From positions 1-33,933 of IMG/VR virus record IMGVR_UViG_3300049479_000220: a stretch of 33,933 bases of DNA, one strand, 5' to 3'. Position numbers and translations under genes: made by a program. The stretch comes from a virus. Below, one piece after another: positions 26,088-33,028 of this stretch. The notes beneath the pieces were generated by a model. That model worked only from the letters and a program-made list of their open reading frames with translations, had not been told where the DNA came from and made no database searches. How positions within the stretch are numbered: the first letter of the stretch is position 1; the number at the start of each line of letters is the position of its first letter.

Positions 26088-26279
26088 ATGGAACCGGATC
26101 GCGTTTGTCTCAAGTGCAACACGTTGATGCCCGCAGGCTGTTTTGCCAGGGATCGCACACGTAAGGACGGTCGTCGCCCATATTGTAAAGCGTGCGCAGC
26201 GGATGCCCACACGGAGTGGCGCCGGCGCACCTCCAAGCCACGGCCACCCAAAGAGTTGGAGCCTGATTATGATGTATGA
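26088..26279 (+). CDS. Small zinc-finger protein (HNH/endonuclease VII-type Cys module)
   Basis: 63 residues. CLKCNTLMPAGCFARDRTRKDGRRPYCKACAAD has the CxxC...CxxC ribbon that precedes the catalytic part in many phage HNH and endonuclease VII proteins, but the catalytic part is absent here. It lies in front of terS, where HNH proteins often aid packaging. No clear SD precedes the ATG, so translation may use a short leader. Ends inside the terS start. Confidence 0.6.
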   Translation: MEPDRVCLKCNTLMPAGCFARDRTRKDGRRPYCKACAADAHTEWRRRTSKPRPPKELEPDYDV

Positions 26280-26955
26280 GACCCCATCTGATCTGTTGGC
26301 CGCCGCTGACCCCACACAGCCACCCGTACTGACCATAAACCCAGCGGCCATGGCCCCATATCCTGTGGGACTGAGCCTCGATATTGCGCTGGAGTCGGCC
26401 CCGCTCCTCAATATATTGGACAGCTATGGGCTCACCCAAGATGATTACAAAGTAATCACACAAAACCCCGCGTTTCAGCGTGAACTCGCAGACCACCGCG
26501 AGTCACTTAAGATCGAAGGCTGGTCGTTCCGCAAGAAAGCCCAGGCACAGGCCGAGGTGTACCTCGATCTGATCTTTGGTATGGTGAACTCCCCGCAGAC
26601 GCCGGCGAATATCAAGGCGGACCTCATCAAATCCACAGTAAAGTGGGCGGGAAATGATAACCCTATGCCAGTAATCACTCCGCAAGCGCAGCAGCAGAAC
26701 CTTGAGCAGCTCAGCCAACAGCTGAAAGACATGAGCGACGAAGAGCTTGAGTTGAAAGTACTACAGCTGGTGACTAAACAGACTGTGACAACGAACACAC
26801 TACCGGACGGTACGCGGCAGACGACCACCACGGTGACCAGCGGCGCCCAGATCGCCTCAACGCACACGCAAAAACCCCAGCCGCGCACGGTCCGCACACC
26901 TTTTGGTGAGGCAGTCATCGAGCATAACGCAAATACATACGACAATGACCTTTGA
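26269..26955 (+). CDS. terS: Terminase small subunit (probable)
   Basis: 228 residues. The N-terminal half holds helices suited to DNA recognition (SYGLTQDDYKVITQNPAFQRELADHRESLKIEGWSFRKKAQAQAEVYLDLIFGMV); residues 125-160 form a likely oligomerising helix (QQQNLEQLSQQLKDMSDEELELKVLQLV), and a Thr-rich tail follows. It lies directly in front of terL and overlaps it by 11 bases, the standard arrangement. GGAG lies 7 bases before ATG 26269. Assignment rests on position, size and helix pattern. Confidence 0.75.
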   Translation: MMYETPSDLLAAADPTQPPVLTINPAAMAPYPVGLSLDIALESAPLLNILDSYGLTQDDYKVITQNPAFQRELADHRESLKIEGWSFRKKAQAQAEVYLDLIFGMVNSPQTPANIKADLIKSTVKWAGNDNPMPVITPQAQQQNLEQLSQQLKDMSDEELELKVLQLVTKQTVTTNTLPDGTRQTTTTVTSGAQIASTHTQKPQPRTVRTPFGEAVIEHNANTYDNDL

Positions 26956-27826
26956 ATTAAACATTGATGACACCGCCCTAGCAAAATTACCGCAGCATGA
27001 GGCCGCTGTCATAAAAGAATACCTACGGCGTAGAGACATTGCACGTCGATCGGAGAGCTTTCTGGACTTTGTTCAGCAGGTAGCCCCTTGGTTTGTCTTC
27101 GACGAGGTGCACGTGCTGATTGCACGCCGGTTGGAAGCCTTAAAACGGGGAGAAATCGACCGGTTGATGGTGATGATCGCGCCCCGCGCTGGGAAGTCCC
27201 TCATGTGTTCCGAGCTGTTACCGGCCTGGTGGATGGGTCATAACCCCAAGGACAAGGTGTTGCACACCTCCTATGCTTCAAGTCTTGTGGAGAAGTTTGG
27301 GCGGAAGATACGTAACATGGTTGCCAGTCCAGATTACCAGCAGATGTTCCCCAAAACTAAGGTGGCGAAAGACTCGAAAGCCGCAGCGCAGTGGGCTACT
27401 ACCGAAGGGGGTGAGTATAACGCTGTGGGCGTAGGAGGAGGCGTTGCTGGGAAAGGCTTTATGCTCGGGCTGTGCGTGGCGCCTGATTCGACTGTCGTCA
27501 GTAAGCGTGGGGCGCTTCCCGCCGCCGAGGTTGATGTCGGTGACTATCTGCTCGGAGCGACAGGCTGGGGAAGGGTTACAAAAAAGTGCTTGACGACGCA
27601 CGAAAACCAGGTGACAATCAACAGCAGACTCACCTGCTCGTTGAATCATCCTGTCTGGGTGGTTGGACGCGGGTGGGTTGAAGCCTCCGAGTTGCAGCTC
27701 GGAGATCGAGTGGAAACCCAAACCATATGGAGCAAACTATGGATACTACTACCAAACCCGCCAAGCGTCCGACGCCTATTGTATACCCTTCGCAACTTCC
27801 TGAGCGCAAAAGTTGGGCGGCAATGA
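26945..27826 (+). CDS. terL: Large terminase N-terminal half fused to an N-intein
   Basis: 293 residues. Residues 1-176 are TerL ATPase sequence with Walker A APRAGKS (79-85) and end GKGFMLGL just before the Walker B acids. Residue 177 begins an N-intein: block A C177-VAPDSTVVS, then GDYLLG, and block B RLTCSLNHPVWVV with the conserved His (the usual TxxH Thr is Ser), ending in GDRVETQ. The frame stops at 27826 after a short non-conserved tail that overlaps the endonuclease gene. Alone it lacks the Walker B acids and nuclease domain and cannot be a working motor. It needs the partner at 28587-29789. Confidence 0.88.
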   Translation: MTFELNIDDTALAKLPQHEAAVIKEYLRRRDIARRSESFLDFVQQVAPWFVFDEVHVLIARRLEALKRGEIDRLMVMIAPRAGKSLMCSELLPAWWMGHNPKDKVLHTSYASSLVEKFGRKIRNMVASPDYQQMFPKTKVAKDSKAAAQWATTEGGEYNAVGVGGGVAGKGFMLGLCVAPDSTVVSKRGALPAAEVDVGDYLLGATGWGRVTKKCLTTHENQVTINSRLTCSLNHPVWVVGRGWVEASELQLGDRVETQTIWSKLWILLPNPPSVRRLLYTLRNFLSAKVGRQ

Positions 27827-28605
27827 TGAACCGCTGCTACAACCCAAACGCCAAGGATTACTTACACGGCATCAAAGTTGCTGAGCGCTGGCATGATTAC
27901 GAAAAGTTCATCGGGGACTTGGGGAAGCGACCGAGCCCACAACACACATTGCTCCGACAGGACGAGACTAAAGACTTTGAACCCGGTAATGTAATCTGGT
28001 GGGAGCGCCATGGTAAGACGAAGAGCCGTGTATACTCAATCTGGAAAGGCATACTTGCCCGCACAGGCAACCTCGGCAGTGTGGTGGCAGCAAAGCCATC
28101 TGTCCAAAAGAACTACTTGGGTAAAGGTATTTGGGTGTGTGACGAGTGGTTGACCTTCGACAATTTCTACCGCGACATGGGTGACCCACCTACTGACAAA
28201 CACAGCATCGACAGGATAGACGGCGATGACGGTTACTACCCGGAGAATTGCCGTTGGGCGACACCTAAAGAGCAGGCCAGAAACACAGCCTGGAACAGGA
28301 TGCTCACCTACAAAGGCGAGACGCGCTGTGTGTCGGAGTGGTGTGAAGTGCTTGGCTTGAACCAGGCTGTTGTTCGCAACCGTCTGCGGGCGAATCTTCC
28401 GATTGAAAAAGTGTTGTACGCGGGCAGTTTTTCTACGAATCGAGGGCGGCGTGTGCAGCGTCTTGATGTACACGGGGGCTCGGTAATATTCGACAGCGCC
28501 AAAGAGGCCGCAACTTCTACGGGGTTATCATATGCGGCTGTGTCTAAATGCCTAAGCGGCGGAAACGCCACATGTGGAGGGTATAGGTGGGATTACGTAG
28601 ACTGA
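27739..28605 (+). CDS. Free-standing HNH homing endonuclease between split-intein halves
   Basis: 288 residues, in a frame different from both terL parts. The functional module is WVCDEWLTFDNFYRDMGDPP, then KHSIDRIDGDDGYYPENCRWAT (154-175) and KEQARN, the HNH pattern of phage mobile endonucleases. Residues 22-97 repeat the same layout in degraded form (W-AAMMNRCYNP, GIKVAERWHDYEKFIGDLG, LLRQDETKDFEPGNVIWWE). A helical DNA-binding region (190-226) and a NUMOD1-like end (RRVQRLDVHGGSVIFDSAKEAA...GGYRWDYVD) follow. ATG 27739 is set by GGAG 6 bases upstream. It would cut intein-free terL and spread the whole cassette. Confidence 0.88.
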   Translation: MDTTTKPAKRPTPIVYPSQLPERKSWAAMMNRCYNPNAKDYLHGIKVAERWHDYEKFIGDLGKRPSPQHTLLRQDETKDFEPGNVIWWERHGKTKSRVYSIWKGILARTGNLGSVVAAKPSVQKNYLGKGIWVCDEWLTFDNFYRDMGDPPTDKHSIDRIDGDDGYYPENCRWATPKEQARNTAWNRMLTYKGETRCVSEWCEVLGLNQAVVRNRLRANLPIEKVLYAGSFSTNRGRRVQRLDVHGGSVIFDSAKEAATSTGLSYAAVSKCLSGGNATCGGYRWDYVD

Positions 28606-29789
28606 AGAACTGGGTAACAAGGAACCTCCTCGGGTATGAGGAGGTTTTTTCGCTTGTCGAAAGTGAGTGTCGCGCACCGCTGGTTGACTTCACGGTTGAC
28701 ACCACCCATGAGTTTTACGCGCAAGGGTTTCGCACGCATAACTGTGACGATCCTCTTAGTGAACAAGACCAGTTTTCGCGCTCCGCGATGGATAACGTGT
28801 ACGAGTGGTACGGTGCGGGTTTCTACACTCGTCGCATGCCAGAGCGCAACGTGATCGTGGTAATCATGACGCGGTGGAACGTCGGGGACATATGTGGTCG
28901 ACTACTGGCGGACGCGGTGTCTAATCCTGGCGCAGACCAGTGGGAGGTGTTGAAGATACCGGCGATCATTGACCAGGCCACGGCGGACCTGCTGAACAGC
29001 TGCAGCGACGACCCACATATCGACACCCCGCACTTTTACAAACCAGGGGATAGCTTCAGTCCGCGCCGCTGGCCGCTCGAAGAACTCATGCGGACCAAGG
29101 CCACGCTGACGTCCAAAGCATGGTCCTCGCTCTACATGCAGAACCCCGTGGAGGAAGAGGGTGGGATACTGCAGCGCCACTGGTGGCGCGCATGGCCGAA
29201 GAATAAACCACTACCGGAGTGCTCCGCTGTTTATCAAAGCTACGACACGGCGTTCGAGGAGGGCGAGCACAACGACTTTTCCGTGCGGACCACATGGGGC
29301 GTCTTCACTCGCGAGAGCGATAACAAGCAGTGCGTGATCCTGCTGGAGCGCATGAAGGAGCGGCTGTCGTTCCCGAAGCTCTTGGAGAATACACTGGCAT
29401 CATACCGGGAGTACAAGCCGGATCGGCTCATCATCGAAAAGGCGGCGTCTGGGATACCGCTCATACAGGAGATGCGTAAGCGGGGAGTACCCGTGGCACC
29501 CATAAAGCCCATCGGATCGAAGATCGCCCGCGCCCATGCGGCGGCTATCGTGCTTGAACAGGGGTCGGTGTATTACGTGGAGCGGGCGTGGGCCGAAGAC
29601 CTCTTGGACGAGTGCGCCGCGTTTCCAAACACAGTACATGACGATCAGGTAGACAGCACTGTAAATATGCTGTCGTACTTTAGACGCGTGCATCTAGTTG
29701 ACACGCCGAACGATTATGAGCCCGATGAAGACGAGTATGACCAAGACAGCGCGGCCAAGAGGCGGTATGCTGTGCGGCGTCGCAAGTAA
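28587..29789 (+). CDS. terL: C-intein fused to large terminase C-terminal half
   Basis: 400 residues, GTG start with GGAGG 6 bases upstream. Residues 1-52 are a C-intein: block F PLVDFTVDTTHEFYAQGF and block G ending RTHN, followed by Cys53, the +1 splice residue. Residues 53-400 continue TerL: CDDPL (Walker B acids D54, D55), coupling motif IMTRWN (93-98), and nuclease residues D220 (SYDTAF), E284 (LIIEKAASG) and HDDQVDS (351-357). Splicing to the N-terminal half gives about 524 residues, a normal TerL length. The start overlaps the endonuclease stop by 19 bases, so translation is coupled. Confidence 0.9.
   Translation: MGLRRLKNWVTRNLLGYEEVFSLVESECRAPLVDFTVDTTHEFYAQGFRTHNCDDPLSEQDQFSRSAMDNVYEWYGAGFYTRRMPERNVIVVIMTRWNVGDICGRLLADAVSNPGADQWEVLKIPAIIDQATADLLNSCSDDPHIDTPHFYKPGDSFSPRRWPLEELMRTKATLTSKAWSSLYMQNPVEEEGGILQRHWWRAWPKNKPLPECSAVYQSYDTAFEEGEHNDFSVRTTWGVFTRESDNKQCVILLERMKERLSFPKLLENTLASYREYKPDRLIIEKAASGIPLIQEMRKRGVPVAPIKPIGSKIARAHAAAIVLEQGSVYYVERAWAEDLLDECAAFPNTVHDDQVDSTVNMLSYFRRVHLVDTPNDYEPDEDEYDQDSAAKRRYAVRRRK
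28623..28650 (+). terminator. Terminator-like hairpin inside the C-intein coding sequence
   Basis: AACCTCCTC (28623-28631), loop GGGTAT, GAGGAGGTT (28638-28646) and a T run to 28650. It lies 18 bases after the endonuclease stop but within the C-intein frame. The CCTCC of its left arm can also pair with the GGAGG SD at 28576-28580. Confidence 0.6.
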
Positions 29790-29818: not shown

Positions 29819-32434
29819 ATGAAGGGTAACGCATACAGTCAGATGGCGCAAGGCGCCTACAACAAGCTCAGCACCGAGGACATGGCGTCCCCCGCTGAAA
29901 CGGAGATCGAGATGGAGGTCGGTGGCGCAGACGAGATGGGTGACGAAGAGTCCCTGTCCGTGGACCCTGAGACTGGTGAAGCGGAGATCGTCATTGAGAC
30001 GGACGCCGAGGGGGCGCAGCAGATAATGGAGGCGCTGATACCGCACAATGCCAACCTGGCGGAGCACCTCGAAGAGTCGGCGCTGGATGAGCTGGGCGAG
30101 CGCTTGCACGGGTATTACGAGTCCGACAAGGAGTCGCGGTCTGAGTGGTACGACACGCTCACCACCGGCCTGCGTCGGCTTGGGATATACAAAGGCGATG
30201 ATGCTGGCGACGCCGGCGTGCAGAACGTCACCCACCCGCTGATTATCGAGGCGGCGACGCAGTTCCAGGCACGGGCCATGGCGGAGCTGTTCCCACCCGG
30301 CGGCCCGGTGAAAACGCGGATACTCGGTGAAAGCACCAAAGACACCATCGCGCAGTCGCGGCGCATCGAGGACTACATGAACTATCAGCTCACGGTCGAG
30401 GATCGTGGGTATTATGACGAGCAGGATAAGAAGTACTTCCGCCTGGCCCTCTCAGGCAGCGAGTTCGACAAGCAGTATTACTGCCCGTCTGAGCGCCGTG
30501 TGGTGTCCCGCTGGGTAAAGTCCGACGACTTCGTGATGCCATACACCTGTGGCGGCCTGCGCCACGCGCCTCGTTATGCTCACAAGATAACTTACACCCA
30601 CGCCCAGTATCGTCGCTTGGTGGCCGCCGGGTTCTACAAGGACGTGTGCGGCTGCGAGCCCGAGGACGGGATGGTCGATCCCACGGATGACTTGGTCAAG
30701 AGCCCCACCAGCGACGTGGTCGCGGAGATCACTGGGGAGCAGGTGCGCCACGCGGTGGATGACATGGACCGTCTGCACGTCTTCGCCGAGATGCACATCG
30801 ACCTGGACCTGCCGGGGTTCGAGTACGAGTACCCCCTGCCGTATATCGTGACGTTCGATCTCAGTACGAAGAAAGTGCTGAATGTGTATAGGAACTGGGA
30901 CGAGGGTGATGACAACTACAAGCGCCGCGTGTGGTTTACCCAGAAGGACATGATGCCGGGCCTCGGTGCCTACGGGTTCGGATTGATTCACTGCATCGGC
31001 GGTATCGCAGACGCGGCCACGGACATCCTGCAGATCCTCATCGACAGCGGCGCGTTTTCCAGCCTATCCGGCGGGTTCAAGTCCAAGGATGCCAAGATCA
31101 ACGGAGAGGTGGACTTCGTCCCCGGACAGTGGAAAGACACTGAGATGACGGCGGATGAGCTGTCCAGGGCGTTCTTCCCCCTGCCGTACAAAGAGCCGAG
31201 CAACGTGCTGCTCACGCTCTTGGGCACCCTCACGGAGTTCGGCCAGCGGTTCGCCGCAACGACGGACACCATGGTGGGCGACGCGGCGAATTCAGGCCCC
31301 GTGGGGACCACGGTGGCCCTCATCGAGCAGGGGTCGAAAGTCCTGTCCGGTATTCACAAGCGCCTGCACAAAGCCCTCGGCGACGAGCTGATAAACATAG
31401 CCAAGCTCAACGGCGAATACTTGCCCGAAGCCTATCCATACAACGTGGGCGAAGGTGCTGTACTGCGGCAGGACTTCGACGGGCGCATCGACGTTATCCC
31501 GGTCAGCGACCCGAACATATTCAGCTCCGCGCAGCGGATCGCTATGGCACAGACAGCCTTACAGCTGGCTCAGTCAATGCCGGACATCGCCGACCGCCGG
31601 GCGGCAGCGCTGAATCTCCTCGAAGCCGTGCGGTTCCCAGACCCTGAGAAGGTGTTCCCGAAACCCGCCGAAGCACAACGGGCTGACCCGATCAGTGAAG
31701 GGGTGTTTGTCTTCCTGGGCCGCCCGATCAAGGCGTTCCTCGATCAAGATCACAGCGCACACCTCGCGGTACACCAGCTCCAGCTGCAGACTATGCAGCC
31801 GCCCATGAGCAACGCGTTGCAGGCCCACCTCCAAGAGCACATGGCGATGATGACGTACATGCAGTTCGCGCAGATGGGAGCGCCGCTGCCGCCGATAAAC
31901 TTCCACGCCGAGAGCAACGAGCCGATGCTCCCAGACCTCCCACCCATGATTGAAGTGCAAATCTCACAGCAATCTGCTATGATGGCGCAGCAAATCATGC
32001 AGCAACAGATGCAGGCAGCACAAGCCCAACAGGCGGCGCAGCAAGGACAGGCCGCTCAACCACAAGTTGATCCGGTCCAGCAGGCAGCACAGCAGGAGCA
32101 GCTCCGGGCACAACAAGCCCAGTTGCAGGAGGAGCGGAAGAATCAGTCGTTCGCCTTGGACCAGCAGCGTAAGGACCGGGCACTGGCGGCGGATATTGAC
32201 CGCAAGGACGCAATGCAGGGGCTGTCTCCCCAGCTGGTGAAGCAGGCTGAGGAGTTCATCACAGAGACGGGTGTGCCGATGTCGCCGCGTGAGCTGGCGG
32301 TACTGGCGAAAGCCCTGGGTAAGCCGTTTGCCGAGGTGGTGCAGTCGTTGAGCCGAATGATGCAGGGCGGGCAGGGCGGCAGCCAGTTCGCGCAGACCAC
32401 TGAGTTTGCTAACAAAGAAGGACGGTATCGGTGA
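29819..32434 (+). CDS. Portal protein (head-tail connector)
   Basis: 871 residues. Very acidic first 90 residues; then the portal body (LHGYYESDKESRSEWYDTLTTGLRRLGI, VTHPLIIEAATQFQARAMAELFPPGGPVKT), GSEFDKQYYCPSERR, a central FGLIHCIGGIADAATDILQILIDSG, and a helical GPVGTTVALIEQGSKVLSGIHKRLHKAL stem-type segment. The last 200 residues are Gln/Ala-rich coiled coil (MMAQQIMQQQMQAAQAQQAAQQ), as in long portals with a barrel. It directly follows terL. ATG 29819 has AAGGAG 6 bases upstream. It would form the 12-subunit ring through which DNA is packaged. Confidence 0.85.
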   Translation: MKGNAYSQMAQGAYNKLSTEDMASPAETEIEMEVGGADEMGDEESLSVDPETGEAEIVIETDAEGAQQIMEALIPHNANLAEHLEESALDELGERLHGYYESDKESRSEWYDTLTTGLRRLGIYKGDDAGDAGVQNVTHPLIIEAATQFQARAMAELFPPGGPVKTRILGESTKDTIAQSRRIEDYMNYQLTVEDRGYYDEQDKKYFRLALSGSEFDKQYYCPSERRVVSRWVKSDDFVMPYTCGGLRHAPRYAHKITYTHAQYRRLVAAGFYKDVCGCEPEDGMVDPTDDLVKSPTSDVVAEITGEQVRHAVDDMDRLHVFAEMHIDLDLPGFEYEYPLPYIVTFDLSTKKVLNVYRNWDEGDDNYKRRVWFTQKDMMPGLGAYGFGLIHCIGGIADAATDILQILIDSGAFSSLSGGFKSKDAKINGEVDFVPGQWKDTEMTADELSRAFFPLPYKEPSNVLLTLLGTLTEFGQRFAATTDTMVGDAANSGPVGTTVALIEQGSKVLSGIHKRLHKALGDELINIAKLNGEYLPEAYPYNVGEGAVLRQDFDGRIDVIPVSDPNIFSSAQRIAMAQTALQLAQSMPDIADRRAAALNLLEAVRFPDPEKVFPKPAEAQRADPISEGVFVFLGRPIKAFLDQDHSAHLAVHQLQLQTMQPPMSNALQAHLQEHMAMMTYMQFAQMGAPLPPINFHAESNEPMLPDLPPMIEVQISQQSAMMAQQIMQQQMQAAQAQQAAQQGQAAQPQVDPVQQAAQQEQLRAQQAQLQEERKNQSFALDQQRKDRALAADIDRKDAMQGLSPQLVKQAEEFITETGVPMSPRELAVLAKALGKPFAEVVQSLSRMMQGGQGGSQFAQTTEFANKEGRYR

Positions 32435-32631
32435 GAAGCGTCTTTGACCTGAAGGAAAAGCTGCTACGCGCCATTGAAGAACAGCGCGTAGCGGTGGAGA
32501 AACGGGTGGTGGGTGGTCAGGCTGCCGACCACGCGGAATACCGCGCCCTCGTCGGGACGATACGAGGGATGAATGAAGCGGCGAATATCGTCAAAACGCA
32601 GTTCGATAAACTTCTTGATGAAGGAGATTGA
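32431..32631 (+). CDS. Small helical head-region protein
   Basis: 66 residues starting at GTG (GTGA overlap with the portal stop, GAAGGA 8 bases upstream). Nearly all helix (VFDLKEKLLRAIEEQRVAVEKRV... then YRALVGTIRGMNEAANIVKTQFDKLLDEGD). Small coiled-coil proteins between portal and scaffold are common in podovirus-like phages; exact role unknown. Confidence 0.7.
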   Translation: MRSVFDLKEKLLRAIEEQRVAVEKRVVGGQAADHAEYRALVGTIRGMNEAANIVKTQFDKLLDEGD

Positions 32632-32632
32632 T

Positions 32633-33028
32633 GTGAAAGTACCTGGAGATAGCACGGGCTGGGACAATGAGGACGCCGTCCACCCGGAGGGATTCTTCGA
32701 CGGAATCAAACCTATCTATTGGCGTATGTTGGTCATGCCGGTACGGCCCAAGGTCCGTACGAAGAGCGGCATTCTGATTGCGTCAAGCACCCAAGAGGCG
32801 CAGGAAGTGCTGACTTACGTCGGCAAAGTCGTTGGGATGGGGTCGAAAGCCGGTAAGGATCAGCGTCTGGACGGCGAGCCGCACGCACCGAAGGTGGGCG
32901 ACTACGTGATTTTTGGCCGGTATGCCGGGCAGAAGATCACCTACAAGAACGTCAAGCTGTTGCTCGTCAACGACGACGAGATCCTCAGCGTGGTGACCGA
33001 CCCAGAAGACCTGCGGATTCACATTTAA
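32633..33028 (+). CDS. GroES-like (Cpn10-fold) protein
   Basis: 131 residues, GTG start with AAGGAG 6 bases upstream, directly after the preceding stop. The body fits a co-chaperonin beta barrel: YWRMLVMPVRPKVRTKSGILIASSTQEAQEVLTYVGKVVGMG, then KVGDYVIFGRYAGQKITYKNVKLLLVNDDEILSVV, as in the GroES signature VGD.V.F..y.G...... In phages such proteins (T4 Gp31 is the classic case) help fold the capsid protein. Its place between portal and scaffold supports a head-assembly role. Confidence 0.75.
   Translation: MKVPGDSTGWDNEDAVHPEGFFDGIKPIYWRMLVMPVRPKVRTKSGILIASSTQEAQEVLTYVGKVVGMGSKAGKDQRLDGEPHAPKVGDYVIFGRYAGQKITYKNVKLLLVNDDEILSVVTDPEDLRIHI

Follow-up and report, generated by a model that had tools for sequence, protein, structure and literature searches.

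A terminase gene in two pieces: a putative canonically split intein with an HNH endonuclease gene in its gap

How can a phage build its large terminase subunit (TerL) when the gene is broken in the middle of an ATPase motif and an endonuclease gene sits in the break? This question is raised by the virus record IMGVR_UViG_3300049479_000220, a single metagenomic contig whose entire 33,933 bases were analysed here (the window). Its TerL is distributed over two genes with an HNH endonuclease gene in between, all on the plus strand, and the three open reading frames (ORFs) occupy three different frames. The explanation we favour, with a probability of roughly 80%, is that the fractured gene is rebuilt at the protein level by trans-splicing of a split intein, and that the HNH gene encodes a homing endonuclease residing in an exchangeable gap.

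The first gene (TerL-N, 26945–27826, ATG at 26945, stop at 27824–27826) was assigned to PHROG 4758 (E-value 2.4e-36) and encodes the N-extein (26945–27472), carrying the Walker A motif APRAGKS, fused to an N-terminal intein half (IntN). Cys177 (27473–27475) opens block A (CVAPDSTV), and block B reads LTCSLNHPVWV. Residues 1–82 of IntN, the catalytic core with Cys1, block A and the LTCSLNH of block B (27473–27718), matched a profile built from 17 further TerL inteins that share its insertion site (hhalign, 98.1%, E-value 1.3e-13). Beyond this core, a tail of 35 residues (27719–27823), which brings IntN to 117, overlaps the HNH gene and falls outside the intein profile alignment; it is probably not part of the working intein but a by-product of this overlap. 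The third gene (TerL-C, 28587–29789, GTG at 28587; PHROG 38, E-value 1.6e-54; TIGR01630, 1.2e-15) starts with the C-terminal intein half (IntC), 52 residues long down to RTHN (28587–28742) and fused to the C-extein (28743–29786). The 36-residue IntC core (28635–28742) contains block F, LVDFTVDTTHEFYA, and block G, GFRTHN, its C-terminus reading LVDFTVDTTHEFYAQGFRTHN directly before the cysteine of the C-extein. This half matched the equivalent same-site profile as well (hhalign, 84.7%, E-value 6.7e-6), with TIGR01443 remaining below its cut-off.

When the two halves were joined, the best match in the PDB was the VidaL intein (E-value 5e-5), followed by weaker matches to the NrdJ-1 and gp41-1 inteins. 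An AlphaFold model of IntN alone was mostly beta, with a mean predicted local distance difference test score of 87, and the top ten Foldseek matches to it were all inteins, gp41-1 first and DnaB inteins among them, at weak E-values (best 8e-3). All splicing residues, as read from the sequence aligned with the same-site inteins, are present: Cys1, SLNH of block B, Asp and His of block F, the terminal His-Asn and Cys+1. The split falls after block B and before block F, which is the canonical position of an endonuclease. An earlier note, written from the letters of the window alone, had described a first TerL gene ending in blocks A and B from C177 and a GTG-started third gene, preceded by GGAGG, which opens with blocks F and G (RTHN/C) and continues TerL; coordinates, motifs and family matches agree with both descriptions, and in profile comparison, the kind of check that it proposed, either half matched same-site TerL inteins. 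Its division into about 117 and 52 residues was correct as to the canonical split position, but the N-terminal half was taken too long, only about 82 of the 117 residues being intein.

The intervening gene (27739–28605, ATG at 27739, stop at 28603–28605) encodes a free-standing protein of 288 residues, as the same note had stated, with its own frame and its own Shine-Dalgarno sequence (GGAG, 27730–27733, about 5 nucleotides upstream of the start). It overlaps TerL-N by 88 nucleotides and TerL-C by 19; the latter also has a Shine-Dalgarno sequence of its own (GGAGG, 28576–28580, 6 nucleotides upstream of GTG). The protein matched PHROG 3377 (1.7e-63), and its C-terminal domain matched the Pfam family I-HmuI_NUMOD-like (PF22083, 5.4e-9). 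With both an HNH core and a NUMOD-like DNA-binding domain, as in the I-HmuI-like phage HNH homing endonucleases, it is predicted to act in homing, with the terminase region as its target.

Both exteins appear intact when aligned with the closest TerL relative found, the one-piece protein of locus L002 (64% identity in the N-terminal and 66% in the C-terminal part): Walker A, DDP, MTRW and the nuclease residues are all there. L002 reads GKGGNLIIVDDP where the window reads GKGFMLGL/intein/CDDP, and the DDP register is kept (GKGGNLII/V-DDP in L002, GKGFMLGL/.../C-DDP in the window), so that Cys+1 at 28743 takes the position of the residue that precedes DDP in Walker B. A C-extein profile retrieved further TerL relatives (mostly 36–44% identical); no intein was present in these wherever the site was readable, the pattern used being unable to read it in a minority of loci. 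When viral contigs were searched for anything close to the intein or to the broken gene, only L002 and more distant TerLs or inteins came up. In the extein tree, the window and L002 formed a fully supported group with L007 as its neighbour, L002 and L007 both being uninterrupted; given this grouping, the intein looks like an isolated acquisition within its TerL clade.

Taken in sequence, the proposed events would be as follows. The ribosome would make two TerL fragments and a separate HNH endonuclease from the three overlapping genes, and the 82-residue IntN closing the first fragment would bind the approximately 36-residue IntC with which the second begins. For its own excision, the intein would use Cys1, Ser/His of block B, Asp/His of block F, the His-Asn end and Cys+1; ...GKGFMLGL would become linked to CDDPL..., which would restore the Walker B region of the packaging ATPase. 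TerL probably relies on protein trans-splicing, as already put forward in the earlier note. At the DNA level, the HNH endonuclease may have cut, or may still cut, uninterrupted DNA in or near terminase genes, with repair copying the interrupted version in.

The same insertion site is used in other phages. Loci were initially fetched with a probe for intein C-termini before DDP which included three invented rows; it served solely for this retrieval and was later replaced by an alignment of real loci. Altogether, 20 further distinct phage TerL inteins end exactly with HN/CDDP. Six are mini-inteins in cis (L156, L175, L271, L272, L279, L292). In another seven, also cis inteins, the linker is overlapped by a zinc-ribbon HNH gene read in the +1 frame (L149, L161, L168, L178, L223, L253, L281). 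The remaining seven are split (L204/L206, L207, L284, L288, L295, L148, L280). Between the split halves lies a zinc-ribbon HNH gene in L204/L206 and L207 and a GIY-YIG gene in L284, L288 and L295, while L148 has a short gap without endonuclease; in L280 the contig ends before the N-half, with an unclassified ORF upstream. The split loci that have an endonuclease show overlapping or directly adjoining genes at its boundaries, as the window does, and the other frames of the endonuclease gene hold stops at chance rate, so that reading through TerL is impossible. A wider scan of this and neighbouring sites, whose motif overlooks some split loci (L284 and L295 among them), listed 56 cis inteins and 5 split-like ones, all five of the latter at the exact HN/CDDP position. 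Apart from this site, the TerL-N of L206 (L206:2495-4297) contains another intein, in frame and within Walker A (between ...PRHMKG and SLAIS), which makes two inteins, one each in two ATPase motifs of one gene.

Several features of the window weigh against the favoured explanation. It is represented by one contig only, with no near-identical copy available. The N-extein flank GFMLGL (27455–27472) is atypical: F at −6, M at −5 and G at −3 each occurred in none of 97 intein-free TerLs. Such a flank could mean a weaker Walker B strand after splicing, or it could have come from a donor by co-conversion. The intein, whose IntN is 38% or less identical to other same-site TerL inteins, sits on a very long branch of the intein tree, which makes its placement there, nearest to L284 (GIY-YIG) and L148 (no endonuclease), unreliable. 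Finally, a hairpin with a perfect 9-bp stem, AACCTCCTC-GGGTAT-GAGGAGGTT followed by TTTT (28623–28650), lies within the IntC frame just 3′ of the HNH stop and resembles a terminator (z-score −2.4 for 94 nucleotides); no such hairpin was found in the six other split loci checked. Its role may be to end transcription of the HNH gene itself or to regulate TerL-C.

The aberrant flank, the long branch and the hairpin would also fit an intein that is decaying or inactive, with HNH invasion having broken the gene and TerL persisting as two unspliced subunits or as a dead gene. A precedent, at least in the form in which PMC10448857 cites it, is a ribonucleotide reductase whose gene was split by one for a homing endonuclease and whose two peptides are not spliced. 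Nevertheless, we consider this explanation unlikely. The catalytic residues are complete and the exteins have kept their motifs and nuclease residues; without ligation, a break placed exactly within Walker B would be difficult to tolerate; and the same split has been kept by seven other phages.

Artefact is far less probable. The window being a single metagenomic contig, one could suspect an ordinary intein, with an HNH domain embedded in its single frame, that only looks broken through a sequencing or assembly error or has suffered frameshift damage. Against this stand the three frames and the separate Shine-Dalgarno sites, as well as the stops in the other two frames across the HNH gene, 9 and 18 in number (synonymous codon shuffles predict 11.1 and 17.0), too many for the frames to be joined by changing one or two bases. 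Moreover, the identical three-gene layout recurs in independent contigs with other endonucleases; the split architecture, as judged from these sequences, is therefore recurrent and not a sequencing error, and the artefact explanation is strongly disfavoured. It is hardly credible either that the insert, HNH gene included, is an RNA intron capable of self-splicing: phage HNH genes of the I-HmuI type are often located in group I introns, but intein blocks stand in register on both sides, and covariance models gave no Rfam match at the gathering threshold anywhere in the window.

Since other phages hold unrelated endonucleases or none in the same gap, the split intein may offer exchangeable endonuclease genes a landing site that is tolerated. 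The window's HNH protein has its nearest relatives (58% identity at best, over a segment) in free-standing genes outside inteins, which, together with the three endonuclease families found in the gap, suggests that endonucleases enter and leave it independently of the intein. This speaks against the earlier proposal that the two intein halves and the endonuclease move as one unit, as does the presence at the same site of GIY-YIG, zinc-ribbon HNH or no endonuclease. One of the free-standing HNH relatives (L342:1874-2446) is located directly upstream of small and large terminase genes, the TerL of L342 being uninterrupted.

The cis inteins with an overprinted HNH gene (for example L149:3973-5013 and L178:3994-5013, both with the zinc-ribbon HNH in the +1 frame) bear on how such a gap could arise. 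In all seven, the intein frame had no stops over 218–231 codons where shuffles expect 4.3–11.6 (P ≤ 0.004 each), implying selection that keeps both frames open; the two split loci with the same HNH gene had 35 and 26 stops there, at chance expectation. In a broader scan, out-of-frame ORFs turned up in the linkers of dozens of further TerL inteins, many of them with zinc-ribbon or HNH-like motifs. An out-of-frame HNH gene inside another gene is also known from the ShiLan methylase insertion, which is without splicing domains (PMC11855218); the same paper cites a 2025 preprint whose topic, as given there, is actinobacteriophage inteins with 'non-canonical architecture'. Tentatively, it is possible that the Walker B site of TerL preserves a route by which split inteins originate: an HNH gene overprinted on a cis intein, loss of the constraint, a split with obligatory trans-splicing, and then a docking gap in which one endonuclease, be it GIY-YIG, zinc-HNH or NUMOD-HNH, takes the place of another. 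The window, with its unrelated HNH, would be a late stage of this route.

Two further observations concern TerL inteins of other loci. A second insertion site lies close to the C-terminal end of TerL, and inteins there, ending with HN/CDA (L306:2290-2964 and others), have linker ORFs in the +2 frame, several of them HNH-like, with the evidence for open-frame selection being weaker in many. Besides, the closely related TerLs of L279 and L281 carry a bare mini-intein and a same-site intein with an overprinted HNH gene, respectively, suggesting a recent gain or loss of the endonuclease alone.

Fractured genes of the gp41, NrdJ and IMPDH type, reportedly described by Dassa et al. in 2009 (a study cited in PMC6892783), have split inteins and intervening endonuclease genes. 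They share with the window a half intein on each half of the gene, the canonical split and an endonuclease gene in between on the same strand; the window differs in its host gene, TerL, and in having a NUMOD/HNH protein instead of the endonuclease family of that report. In Pseudomonas phage MIJ3, an HNH gene lies between the halves of a split PolB intein (PMC6892783), but the host gene is DNA polymerase B rather than TerL. The AceL-TerL, GOS TerL, TerL CAT and VidaL inteins are natural and atypically split, with an IntN of 16–30 residues where given (PMC13014065). Like the window's intein, they are naturally split and cysteine-dependent, and AceL, GOS and CAT are named for TerL; the very short IntN of the atypical AceL/VidaL class is, however, not seen in the window, where it has 82 residues (117 with the tail). 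The closest counterparts are L284, L288, L295, L204/L206, L207 and L148, split at the identical HN/CDDP site and, if they have an endonuclease, with genes that overlap or abut, yet differing in endonuclease family and TerL clade. Overall, with two separately translated ORFs bearing terminal IntN and IntC, an intervening endonuclease gene, the canonical split and the splicing residues, the window is, on the evidence of its sequence, a well-supported further example of the known but rare fractured-gene split inteins, the group in which the earlier note had placed it on account of its conventional split point and its NUMOD/HNH gene. No published description was found of the combination of TerL, the canonical split position and a NUMOD/HNH endonuclease.

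The TerL pieces and the HNH gene are located between a putative small terminase subunit gene (TerS, 26269–26955), which overlaps TerL-N by 11 nucleotides, and a portal protein gene (29819–32434; PHROG 1216, E-value 6.9e-25), both on the plus strand. The former is assigned from its position and its likeness to the gene preceding TerL in L002; the PHROG search gave no match for it. Further downstream, a GroES-like co-chaperonin gene was recognised (32573–33028; PHROG 3188, E-value 2e-18).

If the halves splice, the window would provide a canonically split TerL intein which is divergent and, with its low IntN identity to same-site inteins, possibly orthogonal to the split inteins currently used in protein ligation. 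Moreover, cis inteins, cis inteins with an overprinted endonuclease, split inteins with three endonuclease families and split inteins with none all occur at one residue of one essential gene, and this same-site comparative set makes the origin of split inteins directly testable.

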